Source: Gelatoporia subvermispora B (lineage: Eukaryota > Basidiomycota > Agaricomycetes > Polyporales > Gelatoporiaceae). From it: a stretch of 64,000 nucleotides of DNA. Below are positions 20,579 to 22,564 of the stretch, piece by piece. The notes beneath the pieces were generated by a model. The model was not told the DNA's origin. It was given only the letters and a program-made list of their open reading frames with translations, and ran no database searches. Position numbers and translations under genes: made by a program. Each line of letters opens with the position of its first letter. Position 1 is the stretch's first letter. The stretch is taken from NCBI GenBank assembly GCA_000320605.2, contig KB445792.1:1865581-1929580 (forward strand), read 5' to 3'.

Positions 20579-20586
20579 TGTCGTTG
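20579..20586 (+). repeat. Left 8-bp inverted repeat at SUA5 inversion breakpoint
   Basis: TGTCGTTG, the reverse complement of the 8 bp at 21656-21663. It lies about 30 bp beyond the end of the inverted SUA5 exon 1. Placing the breakpoint here restores a normal intron (see findings). On its own an 8-mer match is weak; the functional restoration makes it notable. Confidence 0.55.
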
Positions 20587-20612
20587 TTCTTTCCTTATTG
20601 TTCTTCATCGCT

Positions 20613-20987
20613 TTACTCCATCTCCGGTGTGCATAGAGTGTAGCCCGTGGGTAGTATCCTCCGAAGCATCGCAGGCGAGGAGACATGCACGATGAGTGGA
20701 TTATCTGGAGGTCGTCCCTTGGTGGAGAATATACGCGATGCAGCATCCGGCTCTAACGCCAGGGCTCCCAGTCCGTATACTGTTTCCGTAGGGAAAGCGA
20801 CTGTTTCTCCATTACGGAGGTCTTGTGCCGCAAGCTGAAGGAACTGCAGCGTCTCCGGAGCCGTTATGACGGGTTCGTCGGCCGTAAAGGAGACTGCGGC
20901 AGCATCGCAGCGCAAGACTCGTGTTGAGTACGACATTTTGGAGTAAGTCCGGTGTATATGGCGAAGCCAGAGTTTAGCAAGGTTCAT
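20613..20987 (-). pseudogene. SUA5: SUA5 first exon (N-terminal half), inverted relative to the rest of the gene
   Basis: N-terminal half of threonylcarbamoyl-AMP synthase (YrdC/Sua5), which makes the intermediate for t6A37 on ANN-decoding tRNAs. The minus-strand frame opens [17 protein letters not shown] (a basic, possibly mitochondrial presequence), with a second ATG giving [15 protein letters not shown]. It carries [16 protein letters not shown], the K-x-R motif in [17 protein letters not shown], and ends [20 protein letters not shown] at an immediate stop. It thus lacks the S-x-N motif and all of the C-terminal domain. Those lie about 0.7 kb away on the opposite strand (21670-22564). The frame breaks exactly at a plausible donor (GA|GTAAAG), so this looks like an intact exon separated by inversion rather than a decayed sequence. 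Confidence 0.85.
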
Positions 20988-21655
20988 GAAAAGATATCAT
21001 TCCGTTAGCATGTCGAAGTAAACAGTGGGATCGGCCCGAGCCACTGAAGGACTTGCTTGACACTATCGAGGAAAATGTCTACTATCAGCTTACGTGATCA
21101 CTTGGCTGAGTTGGCGCACCCCGCGCGCCCCTCTCCGATTCCCCCATTAATTGCCTGAGTTATACATCACTGCATTTTTATGATGTCCCTGCCCTTGAAG
21201 TTAGATACACAGTATTATTGTTTGACTCCCACTGCATATCACTAGTCGGACTGGCCAACACGGAACTTCACTTCATTGCTTTGCTCATCACGCGTTATCA
21301 CTTGCTGCTCCTTCAAAATGGATGGAAAAATAGTTGTGCTGAGCAATCTACATGTTGTGTGCTGCCTGTACCAGGAATATCAATCAAGTTTAAAGTAGGT
21401 TCAAATGCATCGGGCTGTAGAAATGCGAAGTACTGCCAATACGTGCAGAAAGGCACAAGTCACGGGAATAAACGGCATCCAGATGCGGGAGAACACGGGT
21501 CCACAAAATCCAGCTTACATAAGCTACCGTGCTATTGAGGATGATAACCGATTCCTTATGGGGAATCGGAACATCCATACGGTTGATCAAGCGCTGGCGT
21601 ATGTTTGCCAGCACGGGGATATTTTCCTAGCATCGATATGATACACAGATAGACC
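20988..21655. other. Inverted segment: probable SUA5 promoter region
   Basis: No convincing gene. Read on the minus strand this is the 5' flank of the displaced SUA5 exon, so it probably holds that promoter. A 78-codon plus-strand frame at 21405-21641 has no family resemblance. Confidence 0.45.
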
Positions 21656-21663
21656 CAACGACA
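21656..21663 (+). repeat. Right 8-bp inverted repeat at SUA5 inversion breakpoint
   Basis: CAACGACA, the exact reverse complement of 20579-20586. It lies just 4 bp before the CAG acceptor (ending at 21669) of the remaining SUA5 exon. Confidence 0.55.
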
Positions 21664-21669
21664 AATCAG

Positions 21670-22564
21670 GTCAAGGATACAAGAAGTCCTCATGCGACGC
21701 TTTTGGCCGGGCCCTCTGACGCTTCTCTTCCCAACAAATCCTGACATAGTACCACCGATCATCACTGCCGGCCAGTCGACTGTCGCAATTCGTATGCCAT
21801 CACATCCTGTCGCACGAGCACTTATTGCCATGACCGACGCGCCGATTGCTGCACCGAGTGCCAATTCGTCGGGGAAACCGAGTCCTACCCGTGCCGAACA
21901 CGTTCTGAAGGACCTGAACGGCAAGCTAGGTTTGATCCTCGATGGTGGTGCCTGCGGTGTCGGTCTGGAAAGCACAGTAGTTGATACACTCCATGAAGAC
22001 GGGAACGTCCGCATTCTGCGACCAGGTGGTGTCACAGTTGAGGACATAGAGAAGGCACTACGGGAAGAAGTTCTCGAGTCATCCTCTATCCCAAAGGTCC
22101 TGGTCCATAAACGCGACTATAGAGACGAAGCCATTGAACAAGCTCCCACGACACCTGGAATGAAGTACCGGCATTACTCTCCTGCTGTCCCCGTTGTCCT
22201 TCTGCACACATCGACACCTCCTACCGGTATTAACCAGGTCGCGGTGACCTCCTATTTAGAGACACTGAAGAGTAGAACGCTGGATTCTGGACGACCACCA
22301 AAAGTCGGGCTCCTGATGGCGTCTGACTCTCCCATTCTTCCGATTGCGACGGGTGTAGAGCGTGTCACTTGGCATGTCCACTCTCTTGGTTCGGCGGATA
22401 CACCTGCAGTTGCTGCCCAGCGACTATTTGACGGTCTGCTCACCTTAGAGGGCATGGAAGTAGACCTCATTCTCATAGAAGAGCTCAAGGAAGAACGGGA
22501 GGGTCTTGCCGTCATGAATCGCGTTAGAAAGGCTGCTGGGGAATCTGTATGGGTAAAGGTGTAA
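21670..22564 (+). pseudogene. SUA5: SUA5 remaining exon (C-terminal half), missing its first exon on this strand
   Basis: Encodes the second half of the YrdC domain and the Sua5 C-terminal domain. From the acceptor at 21669 the frame reads SRIQEVLMRRFWPGPLTLLF, then VAIRMPSHPVARALIAMTDA and the S-x-N motif in PIAAPSANSSGKPSPTRAEH. It continues with LILDGGACGVGLESTVVDTL, ILRPGGVT, the linker motif TPGMKYRHYSPAVPVVLL and a complete C-terminus, VRKAAGESVWVKV. No stop or frameshift is present. The only ATG options (such as 21692) would give a protein without the K-x-R half of the active site. The complementary N-terminal half is at 20613-20987 on the minus strand. As drawn the locus cannot make functional Sua5 by cis-splicing. 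Confidence 0.88.

Follow-up and report, generated by a model that had tools for sequence, protein, structure and literature searches.

SUA5 in two undamaged pieces on opposite strands in Gelatoporia subvermispora, possibly through a recent 1,037-bp inversion

In the 64-kb stretch of Gelatoporia subvermispora DNA analysed here (the window), ORF and Pfam profile searches found the SUA5 gene as two undamaged pieces lying on opposite strands. Sua5 makes threonylcarbamoyl-AMP (TC-AMP) for the tRNA modification t6A. The reading that we favour, though tentatively, is that a real, recent and simple inversion has left the nucleus without normal Sua5. If the flip is real, a white-rot reference strain has no ordinary gene for a near-universal tRNA modification, and either tolerates the loss of t6A or uses a split Sua5. 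If it is an artefact, the reference genome can be corrected at a locus whose sole near-identical protein, among the 120 matches listed, is the window's own 244-aa fragment.

The two pieces and their conservation

The N-terminal piece is carried by a minus-strand ORF (20613-20996, 127 aa) that matches positions 3-57 of PF01300 with E 1.4e-16, and the C-terminal piece by a plus-strand ORF (21653-22564, 303 aa) that matches positions 65-178 of PF01300 with E 1.1e-35 and Sua5_C with E 1.1e-27. Both pieces exceed the Pfam cut-off individually and are far above chance. The domain pair of a Sua5/TsaC threonylcarbamoyl-AMP synthase (PF01300 and PF03481) is present, though in two pieces, and the single continuous frame, or exons on the same strand, expected of such a gene is absent from the locus. 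The division of SUA5 between strands in a micro-inversion arrangement, proposed earlier from the letters of the DNA (the sequence-only reading), is borne out by the ORFs and Pfam matches on each strand. The refined coordinates of the pieces, with the features around them, are as follows; a slash marks a joint or splice point.

16380-17807, minus: F-box/leucine-rich-repeat gene, GRR1-like (Pfam F-box-like and LRR)
19621-20545, start approximate, plus: U1 snRNP C-like gene (U1C) with U1 zinc finger (PF06220, E 5.6e-16), proline/glycine-rich tail and five introns by eye
20546-20633, no strand assigned: region left of the inversion, on the downstream side of U1C, which gives the N piece CTPEME and a stop on the minus strand (sequence, ORF)
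20611-20616, minus: donor-like GTAAAG after the N piece, at a position that does not restore the family spacing (sequence)
20634-21670, minus: inverted block of 1,037 bp, with breaks between 20633 and 20634 and between 21670 and 21671 (homology limits and family spacing)
20634-20987, start 20987 or 20936, minus: N-terminal 118 codons of SUA5 with the K-x-R motif (ORF, Pfam, alignment)
20988-21100, minus: 5' flank of the SUA5 N piece, presumably the promoter, adjoining the transposon
21101-21570, minus: Helitron2-like non-autonomous transposon, 470 bp (end motifs, hairpins, copies in the genome)
21571-21670, minus: 100 bp from transposon to C piece, which in the inversion reading would be the remaining former U1C-SUA5 intergenic DNA, flipped along
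21667-21670, plus: acceptor-like CAG/G just before the C piece (sequence)
21671-22564, plus: last 297 codons of SUA5, including the S-x-N motif and the Sua5_C domain, first ATG at 21692 and in-frame stop upstream at 21650 (ORF, Pfam)

The closest relative among the 120 best of 7,626 protein matches to the C piece is the Obba rivulosa protein P0001, with identities by translated search of 74% to the N piece (residues 1-120) and 78% to the C piece (residues 103-413), and of 75% and 81%, respectively, in the homologue alignment. The translated match to the C piece extends backwards across one TAG. Such alignments running back through the TAG prompted us to consider a degenerate duplicate of the N-terminal part ahead of the C piece, which was rejected since the similarity was not above that of shuffled sequences. 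The window gene shares with Polyporales Sua5 genes such as that of Obba rivulosa both domains, the columns invariant in 114 homologues, the K-x-R and S-x-N motifs and a GRR1 neighbourhood, whereas it is not one open frame, its first 118 and last 297 codons being on opposite strands. The protein database entry for the locus (P0002) has 244 aa and starts inside the C piece (MTDAPIAAPS), and this gene model looks N-terminally truncated.

Neither piece shows decay. Compared with the 114 homologues, no fully invariant column is altered (0/26 in the N piece and 0/83 in the C piece, 0/109 in all) and no column conserved at 98% (0/33 and 0/104), and the altered columns at 95% and 90% number 0/37 and 0/44 in the N piece and 2/125 and 3/140 in the C piece, respectively. 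The homologues' own mean changes at the 95% columns, by leave-one-out, are 0.32 (N) and 1.06 (C). K-x-R and S-x-N are kept in the window; in an alignment of 32 sequences their residues (K90/R92 and S181/N183 of P0001) do not vary. The gap between the N and C pieces in identity to Obba rivulosa is 5 points, against a mean of 8 (sd 5) in other homologues. Because of this lack of decay, the flip should be recent, or artefactual, or the pieces should still be needed or working; the earlier argument from undamaged pieces to a recent event thus agrees with the absence of any sign of age.

The check for an intact SUA5 elsewhere, suggested by the sequence-only reading, was made by searches of the 37.7-Mb, 52-contig assembly with the C piece, the N piece, PF01300 and the Obba rivulosa protein; no second SUA5 was found there, and the translated searches gave no intact copy. 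The PF01300 profile gave exactly two matches in the assembly at E up to 10, namely the two SUA5 pieces, and the N piece gave, beyond itself, two matches only (E 0.39 and 0.47). Two loci of the TsaD family, presumably Kae1 and Qri7, are retained in the genome.

Breaks and content of the inverted block

Of the 120 homologues listed, 113 have a spacing of exactly 26 residues from HV (in the anchor NPLI.HV) to FWPG. One further homologue, with YWPG, has the same spacing, so that all of those showing both anchors agree (114/114); among the remaining six, five start too late for the spacing to be read, and the sixth is the fragment from the window itself. The two SUA5 pieces sum to 26 (16 up to YTL and 10 from SRI) only if joined as YTL/SRIQEV, where Obba rivulosa has YTLSRTQEI, and the last column of the N piece adjoins the first column of the C piece in the homologue alignment. 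Since only this joint gives the family spacing, the right break lies inside the coding sequence, between two codons, the coding break being placed with an ambiguity of 1 bp. The sequence-only reading had run YTLCTPEM straight into RIQEVLMRRFWPGP without missing residues, a joint with too many residues for the family; the CTPEME and stop that follow YTL are run-off into the downstream side of U1C. Its view of the halves as two exons parted in an intron also fails against a break within the coding sequence, and the sole splice-like pair would add 4 or 6 residues and is without a branch motif.

The 1,037-bp block, not its flanks, is taken as the part that would have turned, because no smaller change than flipping it would bring back a single frame. 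Both joints are seamless, with 0 N bases in the window. No inverted repeat above chance was found at the breaks, where the longest common stretch of 8 bp is at chance level by shuffles, and none of the 19 inverted pairs listed in 20400-22000 has arms at both breaks. An 8-bp inverted pair lying near both breaks, TGTCGTTG (20579-20586) and CAACGACA (21656-21663), is likewise at chance level.

The only repeat found in the block is the Helitron2-like transposon, for which three copies were found in the genome. The copy at C15:716614-717091 has one base different over the element and that at C2:1410509-1410978 has seven substitutions and a 3-base gap. The element is young. On the minus strand, its 5' end is TCCGATTCCCC within a strong hairpin (z -3.9); an inverted copy of this 11-mer is located at 21134-21144, near the 3' end, and the 3' hairpin is weaker (z -1.7, 8/200 shuffles fold as well). 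An asymmetric terminal inverted repeat and hairpins at both termini, the 3' one weak, are therefore present, which is the layout defined for Helitron2 in excerpts of PMC5148889. Helentrons have a similar layout and a TT insertion preference, according to an excerpt of PMC4067079, and Fusarium elements insert at sites other than TT (PMC5148889, in excerpt); here T flanks the transposon on both sides in 3/3 copies. The element resembles the non-autonomous elements derived from Helitron2/Helentron (HINE; FoHeliNA) in its asymmetric repeat, end hairpins, T flanks, near-identical copies and a length too short for a transposase, and differs from them in its size of 470 bp, its three copies found and its position inside a flipped block rather than at block ends. 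No autonomous partner with the same ends was found in the genome; with up to 3 mismatches allowed, both end motifs were located in the three short copies and nowhere else. Such a partner may be absent or diverged. Helitron Rep-domain matches occur at 17 places in the genome, several with long open frames, and a 2,335-base stretch of N, possibly a gap, lies 4 bases from the end of the C15 copy. The transposon ends were considered as breakpoints and ruled out, because they are at least 100 bp from the breaks; the element, lying inside the block at this distance, is no obvious cause of the flip.

Readings of the arrangement

Under the inversion reading, a formerly intact, single-copy SUA5 beside U1C would have been broken by one two-break inversion, with one break between U1C and SUA5 and the other between the Leu and Ser codons of the joint, and the presumed promoter, the first 118 codons and the transposon would have flipped together. 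The flip would be in the strain's DNA, not in the assembly alone, the broken ends would have been joined without a guiding repeat, and the nucleus would make no normal Sua5 and little or no TC-AMP. Gene-breaking micro-inversions are a known general kind, and the present case is like them in its two breaks, its balance and the loss of no residue. It differs from the usual ones in that it affects a near-essential gene for which no other copy was found, in a reference strain presumed to be haploid. In support of a flip over a misassembly, nothing was found at the breaks (no N, no repeat above chance) that should make an assembler turn the block. The competing readings are not fully exclusive, and the probabilities that we assign to them sum to slightly above one.

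That loss of Sua5 should be costly, as the sequence-only reading supposed, agrees with excerpts of two papers, which describe severe growth defects in yeast in the absence of t6A (PMC4717488) and a severe growth defect in a living sua5 deletion strain of the basidiomycete Cryptococcus neoformans (PMC10826353). Since this deletion strain lives, though with a growth defect, a monokaryon could survive without Sua5 but would be expected to grow slowly; the monokaryon RP-B was grown for 8 weeks on spruce, according to an excerpt of PMC9330253. Mainly on account of this costly loss in a monokaryon that grows on wood, an assembly or cloning artefact, with a normal SUA5 in the strain and a false local inversion in the reference, is kept as a serious possibility, although we lean against it. 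An artefact would leave both pieces perfectly preserved, as they are, and the assembly may have gaps elsewhere, such as the N run beside the C15 transposon copy; on the other side, the joints are seamless, with no N and no inverted repeat above chance to confuse an assembler, and the sole repeat in the block stays well away from either break. An intact SUA5 supplied by a second nucleus or by an unassembled copy, the locus being a dikaryon allele or an old pseudogene, is very improbable. The assembly may be incomplete, but no near-identical intact Sua5 protein is found among the 120 listed of 7,626 matches (the best beyond the window's own fragment is 81%), and the lack of decay is against an old pseudogene. 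The genome strain is called monokaryotic in excerpts of PMC7588917 and PMC9330253, and derived from a dikaryon in the latter; NCBI taxonomy has a single strain, B, under the species. If the window's assembly is that of this strain, as we infer, the earlier proposal of two nuclei differing in orientation is weakened.

A split or trans-restored Sua5 would explain both the undamaged pieces and the growing monokaryon. We consider it unlikely that Sua5 functions as two polypeptides encoded apart from each other or, with still lower probability, is restored in trans, which would make it a near-universal enzyme split by an inversion. The form in which the two pieces are translated separately and assemble into a working enzyme is by itself rather improbable. 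According to an AlphaFold model of the Obba rivulosa protein (mean pLDDT 80.6, pTM 0.66, 32 sequences), the break lies within a loop of the YrdC domain (112-119) that links helices 105-111 and 120-129, with a mean pLDDT of 90 for residues 111-120. Both pieces are fully conserved, the N piece begins at a start codon of its own and meets a stop six codons beyond the break, and the C piece has the ATG at 21692. However, a start at 21692 would cost the C piece seven residues, of which six belong to helix 120-129, a recent flip accounts for the conservation equally, and the C piece is without promoter evidence.

The in-phase donor-like and acceptor-like pair beside the breaks weakens the real-flip reading, and two further readings depend on such signals. 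Joining of transcripts from both strands by trans-splicing, which the sequence-only reading had listed, is highly unlikely. The phases of GTAAAG after the N piece and CAG/G ahead of the C piece are compatible, but the product would gain 6 residues (4 with AAG/G) that are absent from 114/114 anchored homologues. Pyrimidine is 28% in the 60 bases after GT and 43% in the 60 bases before AG, and no YTNAY branch motif occurs on either side; the five introns of neighbouring U1C have 27-36% T and 52-60% pyrimidine, with YTNAY in 4/5. Pairing of the presumed intron halves, 20546-20607 (minus) with 21571-21664 (plus), is equalled by a fraction of 0.116 of 500 mononucleotide shuffles. Neither splice sites giving the family protein nor clear base pairing of intron halves, as expected of a trans-spliced split gene, is thus seen here, and the titles and abstract openings of the papers listed in literature searches held no report of trans-splicing of this type in a basidiomycete nucleus.

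It is equally hard to credit that the inversion broke an intron by way of the 8-bp inverted pair near the breaks, even though this pair would restore an in-phase GT-AG stretch of 44 nt. Such a pair is expected by chance, being found in 10/60 shuffles within 60 bp and 23/60 within 100 bp, and the restored stretch, with only 9% T and 23% pyrimidine, contains no branch motif and implies 6 extra residues. The metagenome ORF P0242, from a 48-kb contig, also runs uninterrupted through the joint; the gene caller behind it presumably ignores introns. Two short models (P0241 and P0250), on contigs of 1,447 and 712 bp, respectively, diverge from the family close to the joint, which might point to an intron; they were set aside as probable frameshifts on inspection by eye.

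Neighbourhood and other genome observations

The GRR1-like, U1C and SUA5 genes are neighbours in the window, the stop of U1C at 20545 being 88 bp before the left breakpoint. Homologues of GRR1 and SUA5 lie on contigs of equal length in three other fungi: Rhodofomes roseus, Hermanssonia centrifuga and Somion occarium. Their gene numbers are two or three apart in Rhodofomes roseus (g4378/g4376) and in Hermanssonia centrifuga (2v1643/2v1646). This proximity, for which orientation and U1C are not visible, indicates that SUA5 of the window is in its usual neighbourhood. Within the GRR1/U1C/SUA5 cluster (16380-22564), an Sm-like ORF was recognized by eye at 19240-19473 (minus), with no Pfam match, and GRR1 and an Sm domain form one gene model (P0127) in Rhodofomes roseus. 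No Rfam family at the gathering cut-off and no tRNA was found in the 64-kb window.

Elsewhere in the genome, Peroxidase_ext has 14 strong matches (all with E below 1e-23), which reflect an expanded set of manganese peroxidases; contig C6 carries eight, and others lie on C11 and further contigs. One peroxidase exon is identical in 142/142 residues to PDB 4czn, "extralong manganese peroxidase", which we take to be from Ceriporiopsis (now Gelatoporia) subvermispora.
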